Part shown: positions 14,366 through 64,000 of the stretch, one piece after another | How positions within the stretch are numbered: the stretch's first letter is position 1 | Layout of the letters: each line of letters opens with the position of its first letter | Source of the DNA: an uncultured Pleomorphomonas sp. | GTDB taxonomy: Bacteria > Pseudomonadota > Alphaproteobacteria > Rhizobiales > Pleomorphomonadaceae | Reading direction: 5' to 3' | Assembly (NCBI GenBank): GCA_937868725.1 | Contig: CALMMQ010000047.1 | Coordinates: 1 to 64,000, forward strand | DNA: 64,000 nt | Made by a program: the position numbers and the translations under genes | The notes under the pieces: generated by a model | Told to the model about the DNA's origin: nothing | Seen by the model: only the letters and a program-made list of their open reading frames with translations | Databases searched by the model: none

Positions 14366-14552
14366 CGTTCCCCCGATGGTCGATTGCCGCCATCCTAACT
14401 GAATTCCCCTATGGGCCAATGACGCTTTTCGGCGATTTGTCGTGATCAAATCAGCGGTGGATGCCGGCAACTGCACTTAATCGCGTCTTGGATTCGTCAC
14501 CGAAATTGTCCAGTCTCGACGCTCTTGGAACAGGTGAGAGGTGGAGGTTGCC

Positions 14553-16067
14553 ATGAAACTCGTCTGCAAAACGCGCCTTGGAACGACAGTCGCCGCGCTG
14601 GCGCTTGCCCTGATGGCGACGACGGCGCAGGCCGAAACCGTCAAGATCACCATTCTCGGCGTCGGCGACATGCCGCTGTTCGATGGTGTCGGAGATCGTG
14701 GCGGCTATGCCCGACTCAACGCCGTGGCGCGGGCCGAACGCGAGGCCAACCCCAACTTCATCTATCTCCTGGACGGCGACCTGATCTCGCCGTCGCTGCT
14801 GTCGGGCCTCGACAAGGGGGCCAACACCATCGCCCTGACGTCGATCGTGCCGTTCGACCTGGCCGTGCCGGGCAACCACGAGTTCGATTTCGGCCAGGAG
14901 GTGTTCAAGGCGCGCGTTGCCGAGGCGAAGTATCCCTGGGGCGCCGTCAATCTCACCGACGCGGTCGGCCAGCCGATCGCCGGCGTCGGCGGCACCATCG
15001 TCAAGCAGTACGGCAGCCTCAAGGTGGCGCTGGTGCCGGTGACGCAGGACAGCGCCGGCGAAACGTCCTCGCTCGGCGACTGGAAGGTCGCCCCCTCGGC
15101 CGACAGCGCCATCGCCGCCGCCAAGGACGCCCGCAAGGCCGGCGCCGACCTGGTGATCGGCGTCATCCACGCCGCCCATGTCGACGACCAGAAAATCTAC
15201 GCCAGCCACGCCTTCGACGTGTTCGTCTCCGGCGACGATCACGACTACATCCTCGCCTACGACGGCATCTCCGTCTACGCCGAGACCTTCACCGACGCCC
15301 AGAAGCTGTCGCTGATCGACCTCGCGGTGGACGTGCAGGAGAAGGACGGCAAGCGGTCGGTGAAGTGGTATCCGACCTTCCGCACCATCGACACCGCCGA
15401 AGTGCTGCCCGATCCGGAGACGCAGAAGGTGGTCGACGGCTACAAGGACAAGCTCAACGCCGACCTCGCCACCGTCATCGGCACCACCGAGGGGCCGCTC
15501 GATTCGCGCCGCAACATCGTGCGCAAGCAAGAATCGGCCATGGGCAACCTGATCGCCGATACCATCAAGGCGGCGACGGGGGCCGACATCGCCATCGTCA
15601 ACGGCGGCGGCATCCGGGCCGACAAGCAATATGCCGCCGGCGCGACGCTGACGCGCAAGGACATCCTGTCGGAGCTGCCGTTCGGCAACACCACCTCGCT
15701 GATCGAGATCAAGGGCGCCGACCTGTTGGCGGCGCTCGAGAACGGCGTCAGCCAGGTGGAGAACGGCGCCGGCCGCTTCCCGCAGGTGTCGGCCGGCACC
15801 AAGATCGTCTATGACGCCGCCGCCGCGCCGGGCAAGCGCCTCGTCGCGGTGGAGATCGACGGCAAGGCGGTCGATCCGGAAGCCAGCTACAAGCTCGCCA
15901 CCAACGACTTCATGTTGTCGGGCGGCGACGGCTACACCTCGCTCGCCAAGGGCAAGGTGCTGATCGACGGCAAGGGCGGCAAGCTGCTGGCCACTGAAGT
16001 CATCGATTACATCGCCGCCCACAAGACGGTGGAGGCCAAGCTGGAAGGGCGCATAGCCGCCAAGTAG
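14553..16067 (+). CDS. 5'-nucleotidase/metallophosphatase-like exported protein with altered metal motifs
   Basis: Periplasmic protein (504 aa) of the UshA/5'-nucleotidase two-domain family. It has a Sec signal ending TTAQA-E, an N-terminal calcineurin-like domain with LLDGD (74-76) and GNHEFD (107-112), and a C-terminal 5'-nucleotidase domain with NGGGIR and NDFMLSGGDGY. Two metal-site motifs differ from the textbook family: the DxH motif reads DMP (39-41), and GHxH reads GDDH (228-231). It may use a different metal set or another phosphoester, or have reduced activity. GGAGG upstream selects the ATG at 14553 over a GTG at 14541. A hairpin terminator follows. Confidence 0.85.
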   Translation: MKLVCKTRLGTTVAALALALMATTAQAETVKITILGVGDMPLFDGVGDRGGYARLNAVARAEREANPNFIYLLDGDLISPSLLSGLDKGANTIALTSIVPFDLAVPGNHEFDFGQEVFKARVAEAKYPWGAVNLTDAVGQPIAGVGGTIVKQYGSLKVALVPVTQDSAGETSSLGDWKVAPSADSAIAAAKDARKAGADLVIGVIHAAHVDDQKIYASHAFDVFVSGDDHDYILAYDGISVYAETFTDAQKLSLIDLAVDVQEKDGKRSVKWYPTFRTIDTAEVLPDPETQKVVDGYKDKLNADLATVIGTTEGPLDSRRNIVRKQESAMGNLIADTIKAATGADIAIVNGGGIRADKQYAAGATLTRKDILSELPFGNTTSLIEIKGADLLAALENGVSQVENGAGRFPQVSAGTKIVYDAAAAPGKRLVAVEIDGKAVDPEASYKLATNDFMLSGGDGYTSLAKGKVLIDGKGGKLLATEVIDYIAAHKTVEAKLEGRIAAK

Positions 16068-16079
16068 CCGCCCATGGCG

Positions 16080-16116
16080 ACGACCGGCCGGGCCGTGGCG
16101 GGCTGGCCGGTCGTTT
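16080..16116 (+). terminator. hairpin terminator after the 5'-nucleotidase-like gene
   Basis: A perfect 10-bp stem (16080-16089 with 16105-16114), a 15-nt G-rich loop and a TTT end. Confidence 0.65.
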
Positions 16117-16196
16117 CCGGGTGGCGCCAACAGTGCCACCGGCGTATCGAAAAGCGGTTCCGGGCCAGCCGGACCAACGCCCGACAGGACCCTGCC

Positions 16197-16808
16197 ATGC
16201 CGTTCTTGACGCTGATCGTCTTCACCACCGCCCTGACGCTTGCTGCCATCTCGCCCGGACCGGGCATGAGCGCCGTGGTGGCCCGGGCGCTCGGTGGCGG
16301 CGTGCGCGGCGCCGTGCCGCTGGTGATCGGCATCGTGCTCGGCGACCTCACCTATTGTTCGCTGGCCATTTTCGGTCTGGCGGCGTTGGCGCAGCAGTTC
16401 TCGCTGGTGTTCACCATCGTCCGCTACGTCGGCGCCGCCTATCTCGTCTATCTCGCCTGGCGGATGTGGACGACGCGTCCCGATGCCCGGGAGATGGCGG
16501 CCGCGGCGGCCGAGCACCCGGGCCGCACCACGCTCGCCGGCCTGATGCTGACGCTCGGCAATCCCAAGACCATCGTCTTCTATATGGCGCTGCTGCCGAC
16601 GCTGGTGCCGATCGAGAGCATCGGCCCCCTCGCCTATACCGAGATCGTCACCATCATTGCCGTGGTGATCTTCCTGGTCGGCCTTGGCTATGCCGTGGCC
16701 GCCGCCGGCGCCCGGCAGATGTTCCGCAGCCCCAAGGCGCTTGGCCGGCTCAATCGCACGGCCGGCGTCGCCATGGCCGGCGCGGCCGCCGCCGTGGTCA
16801 TGCGCTGA
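16197..16808 (+). CDS. LysE family exporter
   Basis: Inner-membrane amino-acid/metabolite exporter of the LysE/RhtB family (203 aa, six predicted helices). The family motif AISPGPGMSAVVARAL lies in the first helix, and GNPKTIVFYMALLP follows the central cytoplasmic loop. The exported compound is unknown. The ATG at 16197 follows AGGA with normal spacing; the frame is open further upstream but overlaps the preceding hairpin. The gene ends 19 bp from a convergent LysR gene, which may or may not regulate it. Confidence 0.88.
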   Translation: MPFLTLIVFTTALTLAAISPGPGMSAVVARALGGGVRGAVPLVIGIVLGDLTYCSLAIFGLAALAQQFSLVFTIVRYVGAAYLVYLAWRMWTTRPDAREMAAAAAEHPGRTTLAGLMLTLGNPKTIVFYMALLPTLVPIESIGPLAYTEIVTIIAVVIFLVGLGYAVAAAGARQMFRSPKALGRLNRTAGVAMAGAAAAVVMR

Positions 16809-52957: not shown

Positions 52958-53009
52958 ACGGCGGACCCGACGCCGGCGTGGCGGTGCCAGGACCGCCGCG
53001 CGGCGGGTT

Positions 53010-53267
53010 TCAGACGGGAACGGCGACGCGGCGTTCGGCCTGGCCCTCGAAGGCGGCCGGCAGGCTGGCACTGAGCTGCGGCTCGGCGACAAAGCTGCCG
53101 CTCAGCACCTGGGCGGCGGCCCGTTCGGCGGACATGACGGACGAGAACACCCGCCCATCCAGGCTCCAGACATCGAACTTGACGGCAACGAACTTGTAGC
53201 CCCCCGGAACGGGGGCGGCGACGGCGACGGCCTGACCGGCGACCTCGATAACGATTGACTTGCTCAT
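53010..53267 (-). CDS. 85-aa hypothetical protein
   Basis: A small soluble protein starting MSKSIVIEVAGQAVAVAAPV at 53267 with AGGAG about 8 nt upstream. It contains VAVKFDVWSLDGRVF and ends RVAVPV. No family, signal peptide or membrane segment is recognised. It faces away from the AT-rich region 53268-53774, where the inverted repeat GAATGTT-9 nt-AACATTC (53338-53360) lies 71 bp upstream of its start and could be an operator. Confidence 0.65.
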   Translation of the reverse strand: MSKSIVIEVAGQAVAVAAPVPGGYKFVAVKFDVWSLDGRVFSSVMSAERAAAQVLSGSFVAEPQLSASLPAAFEGQAERRVAVPV

Positions 53268-53774
53268 GACTCTACTCCTGGCCCACGGGTCCTGCGGGTC
53301 ATCATCCATGCATCTCAAGATTTCTTGCTGTATTGCGGAATGTTCAGAAGCTAAACATTCGCCATTGGCATTTGATACAGGGATGATTGGGACGGAACGT
53401 CGAATGGCGTACATTCGTGCGCGTAAGTCGCGTTACCGAAATGTTAGTCATTCTAGTGCTCCTTTCCCAAGGTGAGGTCATCTTTACCTCGGTTGGTGCC
53501 CCTTCTAGCGATCAACGAAGACCGAATTATGACACCAACGATTTCCTATCACGAACGAATTTCGGATTCCTTATCCAATCCCCGTCGTTGCATCAGCCTT
53601 TTGTCTAAGCCCGTGGATAACTAGGCTATTTTGCCTTCAATCCATCCACCGAGCCTTACGATGCAGAAATCGTGCCACGGTTCGGCGCCGATTTCCAGCA
53701 ACGTTTTGCCAAATCGCGCCACGATTTGGTGAACGTTTTTTGATCGCCTGCCGCTTGGTGCGCCACCCCGGCCA
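53268..53774. other. AT-rich 507-bp gap with inverted repeats
   Basis: No convincing gene is present. It contains GAATGTT/AACATTC (53338-53360), a hairpin with GAAATCG/CGATTTC arms (53666-53695) and another with perfect CCAAATCG/CGATTTGG arms (53709-53729) followed 5 bases later by T6. Base composition is clearly lower in GC than the flanks. It might hold promoters, a terminator or a small RNA; nothing decides between these. Confidence 0.5.
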
Positions 53775-54008
53775 TCAAGCCGGGCGCGACCGCCAGCGTG
53801 CCCACGCCACCTCGGCGCGTCGCCGCAGGCGCCGCGCCCAATGGGAATCGACCGACAGCACCAATATGCCGGCCGGGATCATCCAGAAGCCGAGAATGGG
53901 CAGGAAGCCGAACAGGCCGAAAACGACGAGTACGATGCCGAGCGTCAGACGCGCCAAGCGATTGCCGGGCAGGCCGATGCTCCGTCCTGCAAACTTCACG
54001 CGTGCCAT
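53775..54008 (-). CDS. small PGPGW-like membrane protein
   Basis: A 77-aa protein with two predicted membrane segments (LTLGIVLVVFGLFGFLPIL and FWMIPAGILVLSV) followed by an Arg-rich cytoplasmic tail. It resembles the short PGPGW-type putative transmembrane proteins of alphaproteobacteria. GGGAGAG just upstream of the ATG supports the start. Function is unknown. Confidence 0.7.
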   Translation of the reverse strand: MARVKFAGRSIGLPGNRLARLTLGIVLVVFGLFGFLPILGFWMIPAGILVLSVDSHWARRLRRRAEVAWARWRSRPA

Positions 54009-54275
54009 TGCTCTCTCCCTGTCGTGTCCGTGCCTCGGTCAGCCCTCCGGCGGCGCAGCCGGCGTCGTCGACTTCTTACGTGGGAAGTGATTTGCCGATT
54101 TGAACCCTGGGCCGGCGATAAAAGCCATCTTCACTGCCGTCCGCGACGATCGCGGTCAACGCAATCGTCGTCCTGTGGATAGAATTTTCCGTTGTTTTGC
54201 AGGGATTTGCCCCGTTTCCCGCCAAAGCGCCACCAGGGAGTCGACGATCTGACGTTTTTTCCTGCGGAAGGGGCT

Positions 54276-54303
54276 TTGCAAACCGGACGAGCTTTGTTAT
54301 ACG
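54276..54303 (+). promoter_or_regulatory. probable promoter of tRNA-Asn
   Basis: TTGCAA (54276-54281) and TATACG (54298-54303), 16 bp apart, end 16 bp before the tRNA. The spacing and position fit a sigma-70 promoter. Confidence 0.5.
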
Positions 54304-54319
54304 CACCGCCACAAGCTGT

Positions 54320-54395
54320 TCCGCGATAGCTCAGTTGGTAGAGCAGGTGACTGTTAATCACCGGGTCGTAGGTTCGAGTCCTACTCGCGGAGCCA
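54320..54395 (+). tRNA. tRNA-Asn (anticodon GTT)
   Basis: A 76-nt cloverleaf: acceptor TCCGCGA/TCGCGGA, D-arm AGCTCAGTTGGTAGAGC, anticodon stem GGTGA/TCACC with loop CTGTTAA (GTT at 54353-54355), T-arm GGTTCGAGTCC, discriminator G and encoded CCA. It reads AAC/AAT. It stands next to the tungsten locus. No integrase or truncated tRNA copy is visible nearby. Confidence 0.97.
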
Positions 54396-54601
54396 TCTTT
54401 CCCCCTTGAAATGTTTAGGCTTTTAGTGCCGAGCCGTAGCGCTGCCGGGTAGCGACTGCACGTTTTCCCATGGATCGAACTCTGGGCAACGGCGAGAGGC
54501 CGACGGACGGGAACGCCGAGACTGCGGGCAGCGGCCAATTCTGGAGAATCGTATGGCGCGACGGCCCGCCGTCGGCGCATGATGATCGCCTTCTTGCCGT
54601 A

Positions 54602-54665
54602 GCGCTTTCCAAACTGCGGCTCCGTCAGGTCGACCAGAGATCGCTCCACATTCAGAAACGAGAAG
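54602..54665 (+). repeat. dispersed ~65-nt repeat, copy C
   Basis: The third copy shares GCGCTTTCC, 15 variable bases, then CAGGTCGACCAGAGATCGCTCCACATTC (3 mismatches in 28 to copy A). It lies in the 336-bp gap between tRNA-Asn and the ModE-like gene, where no other feature is seen. Its first base is 130 bp upstream of the ModE-like start codon. Copy A is also 130 bp upstream of its gene. Confidence 0.6.
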
Positions 54666-54731
54666 GGCCGTCGTTTTGATTAGATTGTTATAGTCTGATC
54701 AACAGGGATACGAGATCGAGCGAGCAGCCAC

Positions 54732-55106
54732 ATGATTGAACTTCGCCTGCAATTGCGGATCGACGCCGACACACGAGTTGGACCCGGCAAGGTCAGGCTG
54801 CTGGAGAAAATCGGCGAAGCCGGTTCCATCTCGGCAGCGGCGCGCGAAATGGGCATGACCTATCGGCGCGCCTGGGAACTGGTCGACCACATGAACAAGG
54901 CGTTCGGCCAACCGTTGATCGTCGGGCATACCGGCAGCACCGGCGGCGCCGACCTCACCGAACTCGGGCGCACCGTCGTCGACCGCTTCCGCCGCATCGA
55001 AGCGGCAGCCGCCGCAGCCGCAGCCGACCATCTGACCACGCTTTCATCCCTCATCGTCGCGCCTGTTGGACGAGATGGTTCGCCAACGGATTCGACCAAA
55101 GGATGA
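54732..55106 (+). CDS. ModE-type winged-helix regulator without metal-binding domain
   Basis: A 124-aa DNA-binding protein matching the N-terminal domain of ModE: LRIDADTRVGPGKVRLLEKIGEAGSISAAAREMGMTYRRAWELVDHMN, then TGGADLTELGRTVVDRFR. The C-terminal Mop/TOBE domains that bind molybdate in ModE are missing; the rest is an Ala-rich tail. Similar short proteins exist in several Mo/W loci. Just upstream of the aldehyde-oxidoreductase gene cluster on the same strand, it probably controls the locus or senses metal through another partner. The ATG at 54732 is plausible, but no strong ribosome site is seen. Confidence 0.85.
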   Translation: MIELRLQLRIDADTRVGPGKVRLLEKIGEAGSISAAAREMGMTYRRAWELVDHMNKAFGQPLIVGHTGSTGGADLTELGRTVVDRFRRIEAAAAAAAADHLTTLSSLIVAPVGRDGSPTDSTKG

Positions 55107-55249
55107 TTCCACCCGCAACGGGCGCTGGCGAATTGTGCTCCGAAAGTAATAAAAGCCGAAGTCTGGCTATTTATCTGCTCGAATGGCGGCTTTCCGGCAA
55201 TTTTTGACCTGACACGGCGAAATACATCATCGCATAGGCGCACATTTCA

Positions 55250-55271
55250 ATTATGTTCGGCAAAACATAAT
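55250..55271. promoter_or_regulatory. inverted repeat operator upstream of the AOR gene
   Basis: Perfect 8-bp arms ATTATGTT and AACATAAT with a 6-nt spacer lie 157 bp upstream of the oxidoreductase start, in a 321-bp AT-rich gap. TATAGAT just downstream could be a -10 element. This is a good candidate site for the ModE-like regulator. Confidence 0.55.
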
Positions 55272-55427
55272 AGTATAGATATGTATTTTTTCCATTTGCT
55301 CTGACTTTATTCTTTTGGCATGGATGAGCCGAGACGAACCGAGCACCGGCTCGTTGGCTCACGATTTGGCAAGGCCGAAGTCACGAGGCGATTGGGGACC
55401 TCCGGATCGGCAGTTGGAGGAAATGCC

Positions 55428-57161
55428 ATGCCCAAGATCATTCGCATCAACATGTCCGACCTCTCGGTCCGCACCGAGGAAACTCCGGCGGAATGGGCCG
55501 GGCTTGGCGGTCGCGCCCTGACATCGACCATCGTCGCCGCCGAAGTGCCGCCGACCTGTCACGCGCTCGGTCCGAGCAACAAGCTGGTGTTCGCCCCTGG
55601 TCTTCTCTCCGGCACCGCCGCCGGCAACGCCGGCCGCATGTCGGCCGGTGCCAAGAGCCCCCTGACCGGCACCATCAAGGAAAGCAATGCTGGCGGCACC
55701 TGCGGCCGCATGCTTGGCCGCCTCGACATCAAGGCGATCATCATCGAGGGTCAGCCGAAGGCTGCCGATACCTGGTACCGGATCGGCATCAGCGGCGAGA
55801 GCGTGGTGATCGAGCCGGAAACCGAAACAGTCGGCATGAACAATTTCGCCGTGCTTGAATCGGTGGCCCGGCGTTACGGCGAGGACAAGGGCGTCATCAC
55901 CCTCGGCAGCGCCGGCGAGAACCTGATGCTGATCTCGAACATCTCGACCCGTGATCCGGAAGGCAAGCTGCGCAGCTTCGGCCGCGGCGGCCTCGGCGCC
56001 GTCATGGGATCGAAGAAGATCAAGTTCATCACCATCGACCAGGAGGGCACGCGCCCGGTGGCGCTGGTGGACCCGGCGGCCTTCAAGGCAGCCAACATGG
56101 TGTTCAGCAAGGCACTCAAGGATCACCCGGTTTCCGGTCAGGGCCTGCCGACCTACGGCACCGCCGTTCTGGTCAACATCCTGCATGAAATCGGCGGCCT
56201 GCCGACCCGCAACTTCACATCCGGCCAGTGCGATCATCATGACATGATCTCCGGCGAGCACATGTATGAAACCATCGTGGCGCGTGGCGGCGAGCCGACG
56301 CACGGCTGTTCGCTCGGCTGCATCATCCAGTGTTCGCAGGTTTACAACGACAAGGACGGCAAGTATCTGACGTCTGGCTTTGAGTACGAGACGATCTGGG
56401 CCTACGGTGCCGACTGCCTGATCAACAATCTGGACCTTATCGCCGAGTGCGACAACGTCATGGACGATCTCGGCGTCGACAGTATTGAGACGCCGGTGAT
56501 GTTCGGCGTGGCCATGGAAGCCGGCCTGCTCAAGTTCGGCGACGGCACGGAAGTGCTGCGCATGCTGCGCGAGGAGATCGGCAAGGCAACGCCGCTCGGC
56601 CGCATTCTCGGTGGCGGCACCGCCATGGTCGGCAAGACCTACGGCGTCGCCCGCGTGCCCGTCGTCAAGGGTCAAGCCATCCCCGCCTACGATCCACGCT
56701 CGGTCAAGGGCATCGGCGTCACCTACGCGACGACGACCCAGGGCGCCGACCACACCGCCGGCTACGCGGTGGCCACCAATGTGCTCAACGTCGGTGGCAA
56801 GGTCGATCCGCTCTCCAACGTTGGACAGGTTGAACTGTCTCGCAACCTGCAGATCGCCACCGCCGCCATCGACTCGACCGGTCTCTGCCTGTTCATCGCC
56901 TTCCCGGCGCTTGACATCGCCGAGTGTCTGCCGGCCGCCGTCGACATGCTGAACGCCCGTTTCGGCACCAAGCTGACGATGGATGACGTGGTTGGGCTCG
57001 GCAAGACCGTGCTGAAGCTCGAGCACGAGTTCAACCTCAAGGCCGGCATCGGCCCCGAGCAGGACCGCCTGCCGGAATTCTTCGAACTCGAGGCCATTGC
57101 CCCCCACAACGTCAAGTGGGACATGGATCAGAAGGAACTTGAGACGTTCTGGAACTTCTGA
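55428..57161 (+). CDS. aldehyde:ferredoxin oxidoreductase family enzyme (tungsten/molybdenum, 4Fe-4S)
   Basis: Cytoplasmic AOR-family enzyme (577 aa) expected to carry a bis-pterin W or Mo centre and one [4Fe-4S] cluster. The N-terminal domain has GGRALTSTIVAAEVP and RMSAGAKSPLTGTIKESNAGG; the middle has FGRGGLGAVMGSKKIKF. The cluster cysteines are C294, C298, C302 and C487. The first three are spaced C-x3-C-x3-C rather than the C-x2-C-x3-C of archaeal AOR. FEYETIWAYGADC and GADHTAG are also family-like. TTGGAGGAA fixes the start at 55428. With pterin and tungstate genes downstream, tungsten is the likely metal. The substrate is unknown; an aldehyde or carboxylic acid couple is the family norm. 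Confidence 0.92.
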   Translation: MPKIIRINMSDLSVRTEETPAEWAGLGGRALTSTIVAAEVPPTCHALGPSNKLVFAPGLLSGTAAGNAGRMSAGAKSPLTGTIKESNAGGTCGRMLGRLDIKAIIIEGQPKAADTWYRIGISGESVVIEPETETVGMNNFAVLESVARRYGEDKGVITLGSAGENLMLISNISTRDPEGKLRSFGRGGLGAVMGSKKIKFITIDQEGTRPVALVDPAAFKAANMVFSKALKDHPVSGQGLPTYGTAVLVNILHEIGGLPTRNFTSGQCDHHDMISGEHMYETIVARGGEPTHGCSLGCIIQCSQVYNDKDGKYLTSGFEYETIWAYGADCLINNLDLIAECDNVMDDLGVDSIETPVMFGVAMEAGLLKFGDGTEVLRMLREEIGKATPLGRILGGGTAMVGKTYGVARVPVVKGQAIPAYDPRSVKGIGVTYATTTQGADHTAGYAVATNVLNVGGKVDPLSNVGQVELSRNLQIATAAIDSTGLCLFIAFPALDIAECLPAAVDMLNARFGTKLTMDDVVGLGKTVLKLEHEFNLKAGIGPEQDRLPEFFELEAIAPHNVKWDMDQKELETFWNF

Positions 57162-57174
57162 GCAGGGACAAGGC

Positions 57175-57399
57175 ATGCAGATTACCATCAAGCTGTTCGC
57201 GAACTTTCGTGAGAACCGCTTCAAGGAAGCTCGGCGGGACTACCCGTCGGGCACGACGATCGGCGATGTCGCGACCGGCCTTGAGATCGAGCATGGGCTG
57301 ATCGGCATGATCTTCGTTCACGGGCGGGCCGCTGAGCTCGACCGTGAACTCCAGGATGGCGACGTTCTGGCACTGTTCCCTCTTCTCGGAGGGGGGTAG
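57175..57399 (+). CDS. MoaD/ThiS-like sulfur-carrier protein
   Basis: A 74-aa beta-grasp protein (MQITIKLFANFRE at the start, IFVHGRAAELDRELQDGDVLALFPLLGGG at the end). The C-terminal Gly-Gly-Gly is the form that is adenylated and thiocarboxylated in MoaD/ThiS. It is 13 bp downstream of the AOR gene and probably gives sulfur for the pterin dithiolene of its cofactor, or serves a dedicated role for this enzyme. Its activator would be the HesA/MoeB-like protein encoded next. Confidence 0.85.
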   Translation: MQITIKLFANFRENRFKEARRDYPSGTTIGDVATGLEIEHGLIGMIFVHGRAAELDRELQDGDVLALFPLLGGG

Positions 57400-57499
57400 G
57401 CTCTGGATTAACTTCCTCCTTGGCGGGAAGCCCGCCCCTGGCGCGAGGGATGTGCCCCCAACATATCCTTCGTGGCAGTACAGTGTCGGAATGAACGTC

Positions 57500-57526
57500 G
57501 AGGAGGCCCGCGATCCGGGCCTCCTC
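57500..57526 (+). other. strong intercistronic hairpin
   Basis: An 11-bp perfect stem GAGGAGGCCCG/CGGGCCTCCTC with a 5-nt loop lies in the 165-nt spacer between the MoaD-like and MoeB-like genes. There is no T-tract, so it may be a processing or stabilising element or a leaky attenuator. Confidence 0.55.
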
Positions 57527-57564
57527 AGTCGCGTCTGCGCCAATCCCGTCAGGAGAAGGCTATC

Positions 57565-58323
57565 GTGCTGTCAAAACTGGAGATTGATCGCTACAGTCGG
57601 CACATTCTGTTGCGCGAGGTAGGCGGTACCGGCCAGCAGAAGCTCAAGGCCGCGCGGGTGCTGTGCGTCGGGGCCGGGGGCCTCGGCTCGCCCGTCATCG
57701 AGTATCTGGCCGCCGCCGGCGTCGGGACGCTCGGTTTGGTCGATGACGACCGGGTGAGCCTCTCCAACCTGCAGCGGCAGGTCATCCACTCCACGGCCAA
57801 AGTCGATCAGCTCAAGGTATTCAGCGCTGCCGAGCGCGTCGATGCTCTCAACCCCAACGTCAAGGTCGAACTGCACCCGGTTCGCCTCGGCGCCGACAAT
57901 GCCCAGAAGCTGGTCGAGCGCTACGATATAGTCGTCGACGGCACGGACAACTTCCCGACGCGCTTTCTAGTGGCCGACACGGCTTACGCCCTCCGCAAGC
58001 CGCTGGTGACGGCCGGCGTGCTGGAGTTCTACGGTTCGCTGACGACGCTGCTGCCTTTCGCCACGGGCGCCAACGGAGAGAGCAACCCGAGCTGGCGCTG
58101 CCTGATGCCGCGCGAGCCGGATACGGCGGCGCTGACCTGTTCGCAGGTTGGCATTCTCGGCGCTGTCGTCGGTGTGCTTGGCACGCTCGCCGCCTGCGAA
58201 GTGCTCAAGCTGATTACCGGCGTCGGCGAGCCGCTGATTGGCCGACTGCTGATGGTCGATGTCCGCGACATGGCGTTCGACATCGTCGACTACAAGCGAA
58301 ATCCGGCGTCTCCCGCCTTTTGA
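57565..58323 (+). CDS. HesA/MoeB/ThiF-like adenylating enzyme, C-terminally short
   Basis: E1-like enzyme (252 aa) that would activate the C-terminus of the MoaD-like protein. RYSRHILLREVGGTGQQKLKAARVLCVGAGGLGSPVIEYLAAAGVG, LVDDDRVSLSNLQRQ and VVDGTDNFPTR are the nucleotide-binding signatures, and a Cys lies in LTCSQVGILG. The zinc motif of MoeB is incomplete: the first CxxC is reduced to SWRC, and the protein ends before the second CxxC. It starts at a GTG with AGGAGAAGG upstream. It probably works only for this operon. HesA-type naming fits better than MoeB. Confidence 0.85.
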   Translation: MLSKLEIDRYSRHILLREVGGTGQQKLKAARVLCVGAGGLGSPVIEYLAAAGVGTLGLVDDDRVSLSNLQRQVIHSTAKVDQLKVFSAAERVDALNPNVKVELHPVRLGADNAQKLVERYDIVVDGTDNFPTRFLVADTAYALRKPLVTAGVLEFYGSLTTLLPFATGANGESNPSWRCLMPREPDTAALTCSQVGILGAVVGVLGTLAACEVLKLITGVGEPLIGRLLMVDVRDMAFDIVDYKRNPASPAF

Positions 58324-58341
58324 GAGGATTGGGGAAAGCCC

Positions 58342-58695
58342 ATGGCCAGACAGATCGAGCTTATCGCCTTCATGGGACTGCGGACGCTGTTCAAGGAACG
58401 AGGCTGGTCGATTCCGCATTTTCTGGAACTGGAGGCGGACATGACTGGCGCGGAGCTCCTACGCTTTCTGTCCATCAATGGCGACAAGGTCGAGTCGCTG
58501 ATCGTCAACCGGTCGGCCATCGCCGTGGAAGACGCGGTTATCCATCCCGGCGACCGCGTGGCTCTTGTCCCGCCCGGCGTGCCCGGCCCGCATCGACTGT
58601 TGCTCGGCATTCACGGTCAGGCCAAACCCTCTCAGCCCTTCGGGCTGTCCTACGCCGCCGCCCCCACGGCACCTGACGAAAGGCGCAAGGAATGA
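58342..58695 (+). CDS. second ubiquitin-like (MoaD-like) protein without GG tail
   Basis: A 117-aa protein whose first ~85 residues look like a MoaD/ThiS beta-grasp fold: IELIAFMGLRTLFKERGW, AELLRFLSINGDKVESLIVNRSAIAVEDAVIHPGDRVALVPPG. After VPPGVPGPHR it runs on for ~30 residues and has no terminal GG, so it cannot be thiocarboxylated in the usual way unless processed. Pairing of one GG-tailed and one tailless member in the same operon is unusual. It may be a structural or electron-transfer partner of the AOR enzyme. It overlaps the next gene by four bases. Confidence 0.72.
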   Translation: MARQIELIAFMGLRTLFKERGWSIPHFLELEADMTGAELLRFLSINGDKVESLIVNRSAIAVEDAVIHPGDRVALVPPGVPGPHRLLLGIHGQAKPSQPFGLSYAAAPTAPDERRKE

Positions 58696-60188
58696 ACTTC
58701 GACAAGCCTGAGGCGCTCGCCAAGGCGGTGATGACAACCTGCGTCAACTGCGACCAGTGCCGGGAGCTGATGGAAGACGCGCCTTGCCAGTATTTTCCCC
58801 GCCTGTTCAACCTGGCCGACCGGGCGAAAGCGGGCGGCGCGCCGGTTTCCGCCAGGGATCTCGCCGATCTGGTCGATCTCTGCAATGCCTGCGGCCAGTG
58901 CCCCTGTCGCCCGGTACAGATCGACATCCGCAGGGCCAAGGATGCCTTCGTCGAGCGCGACGGCCTGCCGACGGCGGTCCGTTTCATCGAGAATGTCGAA
59001 CTGGTCGGCAAGGCTTGCGGCACGTTCCCGGCACTGACCAACCTTATTCTGGACGCGCCAGCCCTCGGCCGTCTGGCGCGGCGCATCGTCGGCGTCCACC
59101 CCGAGCGCAAGATGCCGAAGTTCCCGCGCGACCGGCTGGCGCGCTGGATCTTCCGGCGCGGCCTCGATCGCCCGCGTCCCGCCGCGGGGCGCAAGGTCGC
59201 CTACTTCGTCGGCTGCACGGCCCGCTACCTCTTTCCCGACGTCGCCAAGGCAACAGTCGAAGTTCTTGAACGCAACGGCATTTCCGTCTACGTGCCGGAG
59301 CAGAAATGCTGCGGCATGCCGAGTTTTCTCGAAGGTGACCAACCGTTCACCTCCAGGCTGGCCGACACCAACTTGCCGGTTCTCAGGCAGTGCATTGACG
59401 ACGGCTACGATATCGTCTCCGCCTGCCCGACCTGCTCGTTCATGTTCAAGTCAATTCTGACGCGCGACGCCCAGTTCTCGCCGGCTTTCCGCGACCGCAT
59501 TCGCGCGCTGGGGAAAGCTCTCGGCGACGACACGAACGCCATCCGCGACCAGCTCGTGGCCGAGCTGAACGCGCCGACGGGCCGGAGCAGCAGCGCTGCC
59601 GTCAGCTTTACGCAAGCCTGGGTCATCAACTACAATCTTGGCCTGCACGCGGAGAGCGACAAGGGCGATGTCGGCTACTTCAGTTCGCGTGACGCCAACC
59701 AGCGCATCAAGGTTGCCTCGCATGTCTTCGAGTTGGGCGAATACCTGCGCGATCTCGACAAGGATGGCGCCCTAAACATGCCGGCAACGGCGCCGGTCGA
59801 CAGGCTCGCCTATTTCCCGCCTTGCCACCTGCGGGAACAAGCGATGGGCAAGCCATGGCTGGAGCTTCTCGGCCGCCTTCCCGAAGCCGACGTCGCGCCG
59901 GTCGGCAGGCCGCTGGACTGCTGCGGTCTTGGCGGCATCATGGGCTTCAAGACCAACTTCCACGCTGCGTCGCTGGCCATGGGGCGCGGCTTGATCGACC
60001 GGATCGCCGCCGCCGCGCCCGACCGGATCGTCACCGAATGCCTGGCTTGCCGCTTGCAGTTTACCCAGATGCAGGCCAAGCCGGTTGTGCATCCGGTGGA
60101 ACTTCTGGCCGACGCTTACCGTGCCGAGGCGGCGCCGGGGAAAGCGAATGACCGTAGCAGCGGCCTGCGGCAACGCCTGAGCCCGTAA
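58692..60188 (+). CDS. double-ferredoxin/double-CCG iron-sulfur protein (HdrB/GlpC/GlcF-like)
   Basis: A 498-aa electron-transfer protein. The N-terminus holds eight Cys: C17, C20, C23, C32 and C64, C67, C70, C72, probably two [4Fe-4S] clusters, the second with an unusual C-x2-C-x2-C-x-C spacing. Two CCG modules follow: C174 with CCG 206-208 and C245/C248; C378 with CCG 410-412 and ECLAC. These resemble the noncubane cluster domains of HdrB and the GlpC/GlcF subunits. There is no signal peptide or transmembrane helix. Its start overlaps the preceding stop (ATGA). It probably passes electrons from the AOR enzyme to a quinone, thiol or flavin partner. Confidence 0.82.
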   Translation: MNFDKPEALAKAVMTTCVNCDQCRELMEDAPCQYFPRLFNLADRAKAGGAPVSARDLADLVDLCNACGQCPCRPVQIDIRRAKDAFVERDGLPTAVRFIENVELVGKACGTFPALTNLILDAPALGRLARRIVGVHPERKMPKFPRDRLARWIFRRGLDRPRPAAGRKVAYFVGCTARYLFPDVAKATVEVLERNGISVYVPEQKCCGMPSFLEGDQPFTSRLADTNLPVLRQCIDDGYDIVSACPTCSFMFKSILTRDAQFSPAFRDRIRALGKALGDDTNAIRDQLVAELNAPTGRSSSAAVSFTQAWVINYNLGLHAESDKGDVGYFSSRDANQRIKVASHVFELGEYLRDLDKDGALNMPATAPVDRLAYFPPCHLREQAMGKPWLELLGRLPEADVAPVGRPLDCCGLGGIMGFKTNFHAASLAMGRGLIDRIAAAAPDRIVTECLACRLQFTQMQAKPVVHPVELLADAYRAEAAPGKANDRSSGLRQRLSP

Positions 60189-60215
60189 AATGTCTTGAAA
60201 ACTGGAGACAGGACC

Positions 60216-61469
60216 ATGGTGCAGCTGAGTTCGGATGCCTTCGCCTTCGGTGGCGATCTGATGCCGGTGCACGCGGCGCTGGCGCTGGTGGTGGAGACCA
60301 TTCCGCCCGTGCCGGAAACCGAGCGCGTGCCGCTGGTCGAGGCTGACGGTCGCTTTCTCGCCGCCGACGTCTTCGCCCCGGTCAATCTGCCGGTGTTCGA
60401 CAACACCGCCGTCGACGGCTATGCCGTCGCCCACGCTTCCCTCAACGCCGGCGTGGTCACCGTACTGCCGGTCGGCGCCCGCATCGCCGCCGGCCAAGCG
60501 GCGAGCGGCAGCGTTGCCGCCGATACGGCGGCGCGCATTTTCACCGGCGCGCCGATGCCGCCGGGAACCGATACCGTGTTCATGCAGGAGGATGTCGTCG
60601 TGCGCGACGACGGCCGGGTCGAACTGCCGCCGGGCCTAGAGAAAGGCGCCAACTGCCGGCCGAAGGGCGAGGACATCGCCATCGGCAGCGTCGCCGTGCC
60701 GGCGGGGCGCCGCCTTGAGCCGCGGGATATCGCCCTGCTGGCGGCCCTCGGCGTCACCGATTGCGCGGTGCGGCGGCGGCCACGGGTGGCCGTGTTCTCG
60801 ACCGGCGACGAGCTGCGCAACCCCGGCGAGGCACTGGGAGAAGCTGCCATCTACGATTCCAACCGCTTCTCGCTGATGGCCATGCTGAAGCGGGCCGGCG
60901 CCGTGGTGACCGACCTCGGCATTCTCGCCGACGACCGCGACATCACCGCCAGCCGGCTCGAAGACGCCGCGGGCCAGCACGATCTGGTCCTCACCTCGGG
61001 CGGCGTTTCCACCGGCGAGGAAGATCACGTGCGGGCGGCCATTGCCGCGCGGGGCTCGATCGTGTTCTGGCGGCTCGGCATCAAGCCCGGCCGCCCCGTC
61101 GCCATGGGCATCATCAACGGCACACCGCTGATCGGCCTGCCCGGCAATCCGGTCGCCGTGTTCGTGACCTTCGCCCACGTGCTGCGGCCGCTGGTGACGG
61201 CGCTGGCCGGCGGCAAGCCGGTGCCGCCGGTGGCCATGACCGTCCAGGCCGGCTTCGACTATGCCAAGAAGCCCGGCCGGCGCGAATACGTCCGGGTTTC
61301 TCTCGAGCAGCGCCACGGCGTCACGCTGGCCCTCAAGTATCCGGTCGATGGCGCCGGCGTGCTGACGTCGCTGACCCGGACGGACGGCATGGTCGAACTA
61401 CCCGAAGACTGTACCTCGGTCTGCGCTGGCGACGCCGTGTCGTTCTTTGCCTACAGCCAGCTGATCTGA
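60216..61469 (+). CDS. moeA: molybdopterin molybdenumtransferase MoeA
   Basis: Metal-insertion enzyme (417 aa) of the pterin cofactor pathway. PVFDNTAVDGYAVAH, ARIFTGAPMPPGTDTV, RRRPRVAVFSTGDELR, SRLEDAAGQHDLVLTSGGVSTGEEDHV and IIGLPGNPVAVFVTF-like segments are clear. In an operon with an AOR-family enzyme and tungstate transport genes, it may insert tungsten rather than molybdenum. GGAGACAGGA supports the start at 60216. It is separated from the tup genes by a 286-bp AT-rich gap that probably has its own promoter. Confidence 0.93.
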   Translation: MVQLSSDAFAFGGDLMPVHAALALVVETIPPVPETERVPLVEADGRFLAADVFAPVNLPVFDNTAVDGYAVAHASLNAGVVTVLPVGARIAAGQAASGSVAADTAARIFTGAPMPPGTDTVFMQEDVVVRDDGRVELPPGLEKGANCRPKGEDIAIGSVAVPAGRRLEPRDIALLAALGVTDCAVRRRPRVAVFSTGDELRNPGEALGEAAIYDSNRFSLMAMLKRAGAVVTDLGILADDRDITASRLEDAAGQHDLVLTSGGVSTGEEDHVRAAIAARGSIVFWRLGIKPGRPVAMGIINGTPLIGLPGNPVAVFVTFAHVLRPLVTALAGGKPVPPVAMTVQAGFDYAKKPGRREYVRVSLEQRHGVTLALKYPVDGAGVLTSLTRTDGMVELPEDCTSVCAGDAVSFFAYSQLI

Positions 61470-61755
61470 AGCCCGGTCGCTATCAAATCCGGTCGCCGCT
61501 GCCGCTCTCGCGGCGCGGTTTGACTGCATTTCAGCACGCCCTACGTTATATAATAAAAGTTATATCGGCCTGTTGGCCGTATTTATTGAAAGCCGTCTGA
61601 TAAGCTACGACTATCGTATACTTATTTTATCATGTTGATCTGTGTCATGTAATGCGGCTATGAGCCGGTATATTTCTGACACTTGTTACTGAGACGCGAA
61701 ATGGTCGTTACCAATTTGCTATCAGATCACAAGCTAAATAGATGCAAAGAGCGAC
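61470..61755. promoter_or_regulatory. AT-rich promoter region of the tup operon with GTTATAT repeats
   Basis: Two GTTATAT units (61545-61551 and 61559-61565, 14 bp apart) lie in CGTTATATA-ATAAAA-GTTATATCG. Each half resembles the CGTTATAT arm of ModE boxes, but the second is direct rather than inverted. A short hairpin CGGCC-TGTT-GGCCG follows at 61566-61579, and CGGCT-ATG-AGCCG at 61655-61667. No gene is seen in this gap. Confidence 0.5.
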
Positions 61756-62466
61756 ATGTTGCAAGATGCGACACTTTTATCATTCATTGCTTCACTCTTG
61801 AGTGGTGAAGGTGGAGAATTCTATCGAATTATCCTACTTTCCCTTGAGGTTACCGTGACCGCCGTCACTTGTGCCGGTATTGTTGGCCTGCCGATCGGGG
61901 CGGCATTGGCACTGGCTCGTTTCCCCGGCAGGACGGCAATCATCGTCATTGTCAACACGCTGATGGGCTTTCCACCCGTCGTTGCCGGCTTGGCAATTTT
62001 CCTGCTGCTGTCGCGCTCCGGTCCGCTGGGCGGCTTCGGGCTGCTGTTCACGCCGCAGGCCATGATGATCGCCCAGTTCGTGCTGGTGCTGCCCATCATC
62101 GTTGCCCTGTCGCGCCAGACGATCGAAGACCTTTGGACGGAATACCGTGATCACCTGACGTCGCTCGGCGCCAACCGGCTGAGATCCATTCCGACATTGC
62201 TTTGGGATGGCCGCTTCTCGCTGGTCACCACCATGCTGGCCGGACTTGGCCGCGCCAGCGCCGAAGTGGGGGCGATCCTGATCGTCGGTGGCAACATCGC
62301 CGGCTTCACGCGCACCATGACGACGTCGATCGCCCTTGAGACGTCCAAGGGTGATCTCGCCCTGGCCATGGCCCTTGGCATCGTCCTCATGAGCCTGACG
62401 CTGGCCATCAACGGTCTTGCCTATGGCATCTCGCGCGTCGGCGCTCGCTTTACCGGGAGAGCGTGA
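61756..62466 (+). CDS. tupB: tungstate ABC transporter permease
   Basis: Inner-membrane permease (236 aa, about six helices) of the TupB type. FYRIILLSLEVTVTAVTCAGIVGLPIGAALAL, GFPPVVAGLAIFLLLSRSGPLG, and the EAA-like loop HLTSLGANRLRSIPTLLWD-GRFSLVTTMLAGLGRASAEVGAILIVGGNI match. It starts at the ATG at 61756. Its first ~35 codons are noticeably AT-rich, then the composition becomes GC-rich. The stop overlaps the tupC start by one base. Confidence 0.9.
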   Translation: MLQDATLLSFIASLLSGEGGEFYRIILLSLEVTVTAVTCAGIVGLPIGAALALARFPGRTAIIVIVNTLMGFPPVVAGLAIFLLLSRSGPLGGFGLLFTPQAMMIAQFVLVLPIIVALSRQTIEDLWTEYRDHLTSLGANRLRSIPTLLWDGRFSLVTTMLAGLGRASAEVGAILIVGGNIAGFTRTMTTSIALETSKGDLALAMALGIVLMSLTLAINGLAYGISRVGARFTGRA

Positions 62467-63194
62467 TGCGCGACACCGCCTCGATGCTGCCGCTCGTCGT
62501 GCGCGACCTCCGCCTCGAACTGGACGGTCGCGTCCTGCTCGATGTTCCCACAGTCAGGATTCAGAACCGGCGCCGCACCGTCGTGCTCGGCCCGAATGGA
62601 GCCGGCAAGACACTGTTCCTCAAGGTCTGTCACGGTCTGATCGCACCAACATCTGGAACCATGACCTATACCGGTGCCCGACCGCCGAGCGAGATCAGGC
62701 GCAAGCAAGGCATGGTCTTCCAGAAGCCAGTGATGTTGCGGCGCTCGGTCCGGTCCAACGTCACCCATGCGCTCGCCCTGGCCGGTGTTGGTTGGTCCGA
62801 GCGCCAGCGGATCGCCAGCGAGACGATCGCTCAGTTTGGACTGACGGCCCTCGCCAATCAGCCGGCCCGCGTGCTGTCGGGTGGAGAACAGCAGCGCCTC
62901 GCCATCGCGCGCGCCGCCAGCCTCGATCCGGACCTGCTGTTTCTCGACGAGCCGACTTCGGCGCTCGATCCGACTGCCAGCCGGCAAATCGAGGAGATGC
63001 TGGACTTCCTGCATGGGCGCGGTGTCAGCATGGTCCTGACCACGCACGACCTCGGTTTGGCCCGGCGGTTCGCCGACGTCGTCCTGTTTTTCCACAATGG
63101 CCGCCTTGTCGAGGAAGACGAGGCCAAAAACTTCTTTTCCGCCCCCAGCAGTCCCGAAGCTCAGGCTTTTCTGGAGAACCGACTGTTCTGGTAA
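62466..63194 (+). CDS. tupC: tungstate ABC transporter ATP-binding protein
   Basis: ATPase (242 aa) with Walker A LGPNGAGKTLFLK, signature LSGGEQQRLAIARA, Walker B LLFLDEPTSALD and a switch His in LTTHDLGLARRF. The ATG at 62466 shares its A with the tupB stop; a GTG three bases earlier is the alternative. It powers tungstate import with TupA and TupB. Confidence 0.92.
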   Translation: MRDTASMLPLVVRDLRLELDGRVLLDVPTVRIQNRRRTVVLGPNGAGKTLFLKVCHGLIAPTSGTMTYTGARPPSEIRRKQGMVFQKPVMLRRSVRSNVTHALALAGVGWSERQRIASETIAQFGLTALANQPARVLSGGEQQRLAIARAASLDPDLLFLDEPTSALDPTASRQIEEMLDFLHGRGVSMVLTTHDLGLARRFADVVLFFHNGRLVEEDEAKNFFSAPSSPEAQAFLENRLFW

Positions 63195-63227
63195 ACGCCC
63201 TCTGATAACCTGAAACTGGAGGAACTC

Positions 63228-64000
63228 ATGCTCCGTCGCGCCTTTCTGACCGCCGCCGCTTCTGTTCTGGTCGCGGCAGGCCTTCTGCTTCCCGCCCACG
63301 CCGAAGACCGCTTCATCACCGTGGCTTCGACGACCTCGACGCAAGACTCCGGCCTGTTCAACGTGTTGCTGCCGGCGTTCACTGCCAAGACCGGCATTAC
63401 CGTCAAGGTGATCGCGCAAGGAACCGGCCAGGCCCTCGATACGGCTCGCCGGGGCGACGCCGACGTCGTGTTCGTGCACGCCAAGGCTCAGGAGCTCAAA
63501 TTCCTGGCGGACGGCTTCGCCACCAAGCGCTTTCCCGTCATGTACAACGACTTTGTCGTCGTTGGACCGAAGAGTGATCCGGCGGGTATTTCCGGCACCA
63601 AGGACGTGGCCGCTGCTTTCAAGACGATTGCCGACAAAAAGGCCCCCTTTGTTTCGCGCGGCGACAAGTCTGGCACCAACACCGCCGAACTGAGCCTCTG
63701 GAAGACGGCGGGCGTGGACCTGCAGGCGGTTCGCGGCGAATGGTACCGTGAAATCGGCCAAGGCATGGGCGCGACGCTCAACACGGCAAACGCCATGGCC
63801 GCCTATACGCTGTCCGACCGCGCCACCTGGATCGCTTTCGCCAACAAGGGCGACCTCGGCATTGTCGTCGAGGGCGACAAGAAGCTGTTCAACCAGTACG
63901 GCGTCATGCTGGTCAACCCTGAGAAAGTCCCGACGGTCAAGGCCGCAGACGGACAGGCGTTCATCGATTGGCTCGTTTCGCCCGAAGGTCAGGCTGTCAT
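63228..64000 (+). CDS. tupA: tungstate-binding periplasmic protein (partial, cut by window end)
   Basis: The N-terminal 257 residues are visible; the gene runs off the right edge. A Sec signal (RRAFLTAAASVLVAAGLLLPAHA) precedes the TupA signature ASTTSTQDSGLF, and GDADVVFVHAKAQE, FVVVGPKSDPAG and TLSDRATWIAF are family segments. The TTSTQDSGL motif distinguishes TupA from ModA, so the specificity is tungstate. GGAGGAA precedes the ATG. It is the substrate-binding part of the TupABC importer. Confidence 0.93.
   Translation, partial: MLRRAFLTAAASVLVAAGLLLPAHAEDRFITVASTTSTQDSGLFNVLLPAFTAKTGITVKVIAQGTGQALDTARRGDADVVFVHAKAQELKFLADGFATKRFPVMYNDFVVVGPKSDPAGISGTKDVAAAFKTIADKKAPFVSRGDKSGTNTAELSLWKTAGVDLQAVRGEWYREIGQGMGATLNTANAMAAYTLSDRATWIAFANKGDLGIVVEGDKKLFNQYGVMLVNPEKVPTVKAADGQAFIDWLVSPEGQAV

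Follow-up and report, generated by a model that had tools for sequence, protein, structure and literature searches.

Where do the electrons of a tungsten-dependent enzyme go when the genes around it encode no flavin subunit and include one for an iron-sulfur (Fe-S) protein with two CCG domains? This question is raised by a gene island at the end of the stretch of DNA analysed here, 64,000 nucleotides of an uncultured Pleomorphomonas sp. (bases 1-64000 of contig C47, from a genome of 4.13 Mb; hereafter the window). It holds ten co-directional genes on the + strand in the order modE, AOR, moaD1, moeB, moaD2, CCG, moeA, tupB, tupC and tupA, the last of which is cut by the window end. Together they very likely build and feed a tungsten-dependent, aldehyde-oxidising enzyme, the tungsten-type AOR/WorL protein of 577 residues encoded at 55428..57161 (+). 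The explanation that we favour, with about even confidence, is that this single-subunit AOR works with a dedicated soluble electron acceptor of the HdrD/GlpC type, namely the 498-residue CCG protein encoded at 58692..60188 (+).

The pairing is seen most clearly across the genus. The AOR and CCG genes occur in the identical 11 of 14 genus genomes, and in each of the 11 they share one locus with the complete set modE-AOR-moaD1-moeB-moaD2-CCG-moeA (window included); because this set recurs in every AOR-bearing genome of the genus, the arrangement is not one of chance. The tupBCA genes are seen in 10 of the 11 loci, the eleventh stretch (L043) stopping at a contig end, and in one locus (L035) the CCG-moeA-tupBCA block is inverted with AOR and CCG still in one locus. 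Nine congeners have CCG proteins that share 65-74% identity with the window's (the alignment comprises the window and these nine, L036 being omitted), and the AORs of five aligned congeners are 80-94% identical to it. The nearest named locus, from a Pleomorphomonas metagenome-assembled genome (L049), has an AOR 94% identical to the window's and was not counted as an extra congener. The initial annotation had stated that no flavin/NADH subunit accompanies the AOR, and this holds: neither an AorA nor a FAD/NADH-type subunit is adjacent, as judged from domain scans of the island and from naive open reading frames (ORFs) read downstream to the contig end at 91,796, few of them Pfam-scanned, in a survey that did not cover genes upstream of modE. 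Of the downstream ORFs that were scanned, one on the opposite strand at ~68.1-69.2 kb encodes a Gfo/Idh/MocA oxidoreductase and another, at 85,025-86,449, an FAD-linked oxidase, neither of the AorC type by Pfam. An AorABC-type (Class III) complex was therefore rejected, as its AorA polyferredoxin and FAD subunit were neither found in the island nor recognised downstream.

The two genes are also adjacent in two lineages outside the genus. Relatives of the CCG protein were found in 28 of 277 genomes from the class of a Pelobacter genome (G834, E 1e-40) and in 13 of 326 from the phylum of a Desulfobulbaceae genome (G839, E 1e-60), with at most five candidates scored per genome, and 44 neighbourhoods were compared from 39 of these 41 CCG genomes (31 in a first set and 13 in a second; G996 and G998 left out). 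Five of the 44 contain an AOR gene (L256, L257, L295, L300 and, at the stretch edge, L297), which in three (L256, L257 and L300) is the immediate same-strand neighbour of the CCG gene. The AORs of L256 and L257 are 91% identical to each other, so that these two loci count as one event, and ~31% identical to the window AOR, whereas the L300 AOR is 52.7% identical to it and belongs to the same subfamily. The 41 genomes contain 203 AOR matches, with at least one in 40 of them, and the adjacency lies above a rough, post hoc chance estimate made with rounded genome sizes and one CCG locus per genome: 0.95 AORs would be expected within 19 kb of CCG (P for four or more, 0.016) and 0.026 as immediate upstream same-strand neighbours (Poisson P for two or more, 3e-4). 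In a tree of the CCG proteins, built from 28 of the 31 first-set loci with frames of 400 residues or fewer left out, Pleomorphomonas is split (99/96) from the other 28 rows, among which L256 and L257 are nested; second-set loci were not included, so L300 is unplaced. The condition under which the initial annotation would give up the pairing, namely that CCG homologues do not neighbour AOR in other genomes, thus holds in part: the two genes go together in the genus and in L256, L257 and L300, but not in the stretches examined from 79 other loci of the AOR subfamily, as described below.

The AOR is assigned with high scores to its family, exceeding the cut-offs of both AFOR_N (195.4 bits; cut-off 29.8) and AFOR_C (241.8 bits; cut-off 27), and its nearest solved chains are 9mqx_D (308.4 bits), 1aor_A, 9g7j_A and 8c0z_A, at 251-308 bits. 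In a HMMER alignment to 1aor, residues T245, E321, Y421 and H442 correspond to Thr243, Glu313, Tyr427 and His448 of PfAOR, so that all four second-shell residues listed for aldehyde-oxidising AORs (PMC12096430) are kept. The cysteines of the [4Fe-4S] cluster (C294, C298, C302 and C487) are present and invariant in eight aligned AOR rows, with a C294-C298 spacing one residue longer than in 1aor. Of the bridging-iron ligands of PfAOR, Glu332 is kept (E340) and His383 is replaced by arginine (R378), leaving the pair of the PfAOR subclade incomplete. Judged from these residues, the substrate is probably an aldehyde, and the metal is probably tungsten instead of molybdenum because tupBCA adjoins the AOR. 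The initial annotation's reading of the locus as a tungsten island that carries dedicated genes for uptake and cofactor is supported.

The CCG protein contains two N-terminal cysteine clusters (C17, C20, C23, C32 and C64, C67, C70, C72) followed by two CCG domains (98.8 bits in total), as its initial description as a double-ferredoxin/double-CCG protein implied. Both C...CCG...CxxC sites are complete (C175, C206, C207, C245, C248, C378, C410, C411, C450 and C453), and these ten cysteines are invariant in the window protein and its nine aligned congeners. Its earlier designation as HdrB/GlcF-like is roughly right: all five PDB profile matches are HdrB chains, but the nearest NCBIfam model is GlpC, whose cut-offs it does not reach (PRK11168, 216.9 versus 278; also 130.9 versus 279.9). 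There is no transmembrane-like stretch (top 19-residue hydropathy, 1.17), and domain scans of the island found no glpA/glpB, no HdrE membrane partner and no HdrA flavin partner. Because the protein keeps both sites and has no transmembrane-like stretch, a soluble relay is favoured. The intact CC pairs do not choose between quinone and thiol as the next carrier, because a GlpC protein identified from neighbours named by eye (L215) likewise keeps both sites.

In the mechanism that we propose, TupABC would import tungstate, MoaD1 and MoeB would provide sulfur for the pyranopterin, and MoeA proteins would insert the tungsten. The single-subunit AOR would then convert aldehydes to acids, its own [4Fe-4S] cluster being the exit for the electrons. 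We infer that their most probable recipient in Pleomorphomonas is the soluble CCG protein encoded in the island, from which, by way of its two N-terminal Fe-S clusters and two CCG sites, they would travel on to a disulfide/thiol carrier, to a quinone or to some other carrier. A more specific form of this scheme would add another kind of electron output to those of the tungsten aldehyde oxidoreductases: the CCG protein would use the very low-potential electrons of the AOR to reduce a disulfide, in a thioredoxin-like protein or a small thiol, and aldehyde oxidation would in this way drive thiol chemistry, the CCG family doing likewise with other donors in arsenic loci. We consider this form rather unlikely.

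Several observations weigh against AOR-to-CCG electron transfer. The co-occurrence within the genus represents a single linked island; because this one island explains it, the 11 genomes cannot be counted as separate tests. Within the island, the CCG gene sits between moaD2 and moeA and does not adjoin the AOR, and in L035 it belongs to the inverted moeA-tup block. Among the best 80 of at least 579 AOR relatives (40 of these loci extend 5 kb on both sides), none of the 79 other than the Pleomorphomonas one has the CCG gene within the stretch examined at E 1e-2, so other members of the AOR subfamily apparently manage without a nearby CCG protein; in one (L073), a CCG-type protein of a different family lies four genes from the AOR. 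A further 23 stretches, taken from the same order or class and containing an AOR in 22 cases, likewise gave no CCG gene at E 1e-3. Near the relatives of the CCG protein, at least one ars-type gene (25 of 44 neighbourhoods; 22 of 31 in the first set and 3 of 13 in the second) is commoner than an AOR (5 of 44), and moeA (6 of 44) and modE (4 of 44) also occur, all in the first set. The N-terminal cluster region is missing from the CCG frame of L300, which may be a remnant, and a structure prediction of the CCG protein from two sequences gave a mean local confidence (pLDDT) of 35.3 and was discarded.

The competing explanation that survives best is that the CCG protein serves the tungsten cofactor as a maturation factor or reductant: it might, for instance, supply the electrons or thiols that sulfur transfer or metal insertion requires, and the AOR would pass its electrons to an ordinary ferredoxin. 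We view it as a tentative possibility, mainly because the CCG gene is located among genes for the cofactor, both in this island and in some relatives. It adjoins moeA in all 11 genus loci and travels with moeA-tupBCA in L035, some of its relatives lie near moeA or modE (counts above), and of these L255, L258, L270 and L272 are without an AOR in the stretch examined; furthermore, the characterised Class I tungsten oxidoreductases use ferredoxin (PMC13328260). However, 66 of the 80 subfamily loci have a MoaD-like gene no more than seven genes away from the AOR (34 a ThiF-like gene and 18 moeA), and among the 80 the CCG gene accompanies the AOR in Pleomorphomonas alone, suggesting that the cofactor is made without it elsewhere. 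In addition, the AOR and CCG genes of L300 are adjacent with no cofactor gene labelled beside them, and moeA is present in none of the 13 second-set stretches.

It is improbable, in our judgement, that the CCG protein performs arsenic- or thiol-related work inherited from the loci of its relatives and entered the island by an accident of assembly, with the AOR again using ferredoxin. This idea derives from the distribution of orthologues. Some CCG match at E 1e-12, mostly weak, is present in 31 of 49 AOR-subfamily genomes, and strong orthologues are confined to four of the 49 (five copies, which score 255-280 bits over the N-terminal part, against 108 bits for the match ranked next). These five nearest orthologues are 37-42% identical to the window protein and share its second cluster motif, CxxCxxCxC. 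In Pelobacter/Geobacteraceae genomes, four of the five adjoin arsenic-type genes (ArsR, ArsP, Thioredoxin_3, an ArsC-type low-molecular-weight phosphatase or an SBF/ACR3-type transporter), the exception being L211; an arsP-like gene is found in 19 of the 44 neighbourhoods; and the AOR belongs to the same donor group. Against this, no ars gene was recognised by eye in the window's own contig or in the L049 neighbourhood (the genus loci were not searched with the ars seeds), and the CCG gene accompanies the AOR in every one of the 11 genus loci, even the most divergent (CCG 65% identical). That the enzyme is instead another tungsten or molybdenum enzyme like YdhV or BamB, with the CCG protein as its electron donor, is very improbable: BamB-type benzoyl-CoA reductase does pair with the HdrA/B/C-like proteins BamD/E (PMC13328260), but the window AOR scores about 54 bits against BamB (53.7 for 4z3w_A), compared with 251-308 bits for its four best AOR chains, and keeps all four second-shell residues, which are reported missing in YdhV and BamB (PMC12096430).

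Comparison with characterised systems shows how the proposed AOR-CCG pair would differ from them. A 2026 scheme recognises five classes of tungsten oxidoreductase, distinguished by their subunits and electron carriers (PMC13328260). Its Class I enzymes, such as CsWOR87 and PfAOR, resemble the island in having one large subunit with a MoaD/ThiS-like gene (WorX) and a ThiF/MoeB gene adjacent; Class I is, however, defined as WorL alone, and the island has a single WorL gene yet adds the co-inherited CCG protein. PfAOR further differs in its bridging-iron histidine, as noted above. The operon of AorABC from Aromatoleum (Class III) includes two MoaD-like genes, aorD and aorE, as the island does (PMC6365974), and differs in its polyferredoxin AorA and FAD subunit AorC. 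The Class II benzoyl-CoA reductase BamB-I combines an AOR-family subunit with an HdrB/C-like protein, again as here (PMC13328260), whereas the island AOR is not BamB-like by score and no BamC/WorS- or HdrA-like gene accompanies it. N-terminal cysteine clusters and two CCG domains are likewise found in GlpC, HdrD and EtfD; compared with GlpC, the island protein falls below the model cut-offs and is without glpAB. EtfD is a membrane CCG protein with five transmembrane helices and a proposed role in menaquinone reduction, in which a threonine replaces one cysteine of the first (linear-cluster) site (PMC13083937), whereas the island protein keeps the CC pair at both sites and has no transmembrane heme domain. 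The moeA1-mobB-tupBCA cluster of Methylorubrum extorquens also places a moeA next to tupBCA, with moeA3 and moeA5 at neighbouring locus numbers, but it serves a formate dehydrogenase with W-bis-MGD, and AOR is not mentioned in the part of that report used here (PMC13197769).

To place the AOR phylogenetically, a tree of 92 AORs was built by a quick method with SH-aLRT support alone (L098, L108, L113 and L127 excluded as broken or fused). Pleomorphomonas and Telmatospirillum group within a starred clade of 11 rows whose other members are Geobacteraceae and Pelobacter, and because the AOR nests in this clade, it was probably acquired by horizontal transfer. The best 80 of the at least 579 relatives come from Desulfobacterota, Campylobacterota, Bacillota and others (Desulfobacterota and Desulfuromonadia are GTDB names). 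An iron-type alcohol dehydrogenase, named by eye and not by a family search, is within seven genes of the AOR in 16 of the 80. Searches of the organism's own class and phylum, in which 3-4 candidates were scored per genome and counts are lower bounds, found an AOR match at E 1e-60 in at least 31 of 385 class genomes (own genome 1314 bits, next best 376), a match to the CCG alignment at E 1e-60 in the own genome alone among the 385, and one at E 1e-25 in the own genome and at least four others, at 91-99 bits, among 398 phylum genomes. Plasmid records gave no match above 60% identity for either protein: among the 20 listed of 86 AOR records, one was 55.4% identical over its full length (Acetoanaerobium noterae) and the rest 36-38%, and the 30 listed of 82 CCG records were mostly FAD-linked (Fe-S) proteins and GlpC. 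Pelobacter carbinolicus produces two tungsten-dependent acetaldehyde:viologen oxidoreductases of ~65 kDa, Pcar_0456 and Pcar_0665 (PMC4275255), which probably belong to the window's AOR subfamily. The AORs of the Pelobacter loci L053, L057, L067 and L074 are 62-70% identical to the window's, and no CCG gene is present in the stretches examined.

If the CCG protein is the acceptor, the island represents a new way of using AOR electrons; if it is a maturation factor, the assembly of the tungsten cofactor gains a new component. In both cases the answer bears on the role of the CCG family in the arsenic loci of Geobacter relatives. A literature search, mostly at title level, on AOR with an Hdr- or GlpC-type partner, on AOR surveys and on Pleomorphomonas with tungsten gave no such pairing, and the part of the five-class scheme considered here, which excludes its supplementary neighbourhood tables, mentions a partner of the GlpC/HdrD type only for benzoyl-CoA reductase, in the form of its Hdr-like subunits (PMC13328260). 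Pleomorphomonas is culturable, one isolate having been obtained anaerobically and grown aerobically (PMC13286885).

The loci of the CCG relatives display two further arrangements. In Pelobacter and Geobacter relatives (L210, L212 and part of L247-L272), a recurrent arsenic locus combines arsR, the CCG Fe-S gene, arsP and a gene for a Thioredoxin_3 protein, often with an ACR3-type gene and a DsbD-like gene (named by eye, without a Pfam match); a literature search at title-listing level turned up no description of the arsR-CCG-arsP-Thioredoxin_3 arrangement. In L295 (2-10548), genes in one direction encode an alcohol dehydrogenase fragment (by eye), an AOR of the same subfamily, an NfnA/NfnB-type pair (DHODB_Fe-S_bind; Fer4_20 with Pyr_redox_2), two large proteins and the CCG protein, an order in which AOR electrons might possibly be linked to a bifurcating flavoprotein.

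The two MoaD-like proteins of the island are of different kinds. MoaD1 (57175..57399, +) is a WorX/ThiS-like sulfur carrier (ThiS 33.5 bits, over cut-off) with a C-terminal GG (it ends GGG), a feature found in 55 of 57 rows of moaD1-type AOR neighbours from other loci. MoaD2 (58342..58695, +), with a ThiS score of 21.9 bits just below the cut-off of 22.5, has no C-terminal GG, nor do any of 24 rows from other loci; 23 of these 24 contain GxPxxxR, usually as the PPGxPGPxRxxLG motif that the window protein also carries, the exception being L111. Its AlphaFold model has a core pLDDT over 90, and MoaD and SAMP1 head the fold matches in the PDB (best E 1.9e-3, none below E 0.001), consistent with a predicted beta-grasp, MoaD-like fold and with the initial annotation of a second ubiquitin-like gene. 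The 24 rows (L049-L124) constitute a MoaD-like family of their own, which accompanies AOR genes in several phyla, and in six Campylobacterota loci (L076, L082, L083, L087, L088 and L094) moaD2 is on the strand opposite to AOR. MoaD genes adjoining AOR are already known (PMC1779556; WorX, PMC13328260; aorD/aorE, PMC6365974), and a division into two kinds, one without the GG end for thiocarboxylate, was not found stated in the parts of these three papers considered.

The remaining genes complete the island. All of the genes named in the initial annotation are present on the + strand by domain and NCBIfam scores, and its list omitted the first gene of the span that it claimed, a ModE-type regulator of 124 residues comprising the DNA-binding half only (54732..55106, +; HTH_1 37.5 bits, over cut-off; TIGR00637 ModE domain E 1.2e-20, under that model's cut-off), which is upstream of AOR in all 11 genus loci. 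The E1-like adenylyltransferase of 252 residues (57565..58323, +; ThiF 234.9 bits) had been labelled HesA-like, an identity that we dropped, as the MoeB model fits better (PRK05690, 284 bits versus a cut-off of 266). The molybdopterin metal-insertase MoeA (60216..61469, +) exceeds the cut-offs of MoeA_N, MoCF_biosynth and MoeA_C. The transporter genes are named by the best specific model and gene order, as all three score below the NCBIfam TupA/B/C cut-offs: the permease tupB (61756..62466, +) scores 158.9 bits with NF041773 (cut-off 320) and 239 bits with ABC_perm1, over cut-off; the ATPase tupC (62463..63194, +) scores 95 bits with ABC_tran and 103 bits with the TupC model, below cut-off and lower than with another ATPase model; and the tungstate-binding protein tupA (63228 to beyond 64000, +) scores 218.7 bits with NF041772 on its partial sequence (cut-off 400). 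Beyond the window, the island continues to ~67,350 (window numbering) with two more moeA-type genes, one fused to a PBP-like domain. Spacing is mostly short, as had been described, with 13 bases between AOR and moaD1, 27 between CCG and moeA, and 4-base overlaps at moaD2-CCG (ATGA) and tupB-tupC; the exceptions are gaps of 165 bases between moaD1 and moeB and 286 bases between moeA and tupB.

Some smaller features were also observed. The moaD1-moeB gap holds a strong stem-loop with an 11-bp perfect stem (57500..57526, +), whose surrounding 60 bases fold at -30.4 kcal/mol; it has no T-run after it and is possibly an attenuator or mRNA processing site. The interval between the moeA and tupB frames is ~2.2-2.3 kb in eight congener loci and ~270-290 bases in the window genome and L035, and in L049 a gene within it (14498-16240) encodes a protein with GAF and Crp-HTH domains. 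An Rfam scan of 53,000-64,000, which included the molybdenum/tungsten cofactor riboswitch, found nothing except a tRNA, and a tRNA-Asn gene (54320-54395) lies directly upstream of the island; a shared tRNA integration site is not apparent, tRNA genes being present in just 2 of 11 genus stretches and differing in kind. In the genome as a whole, one AOR gene, three ThiF-family genes and two genes with CCG domains were found, the second CCG gene being one that (contig C119, 2455-2691; L275, 1129-3468) specifies a 780-residue protein with NAD/FAD, Fer4 and one CCG domain that could link Fe-S electrons to NAD(P).

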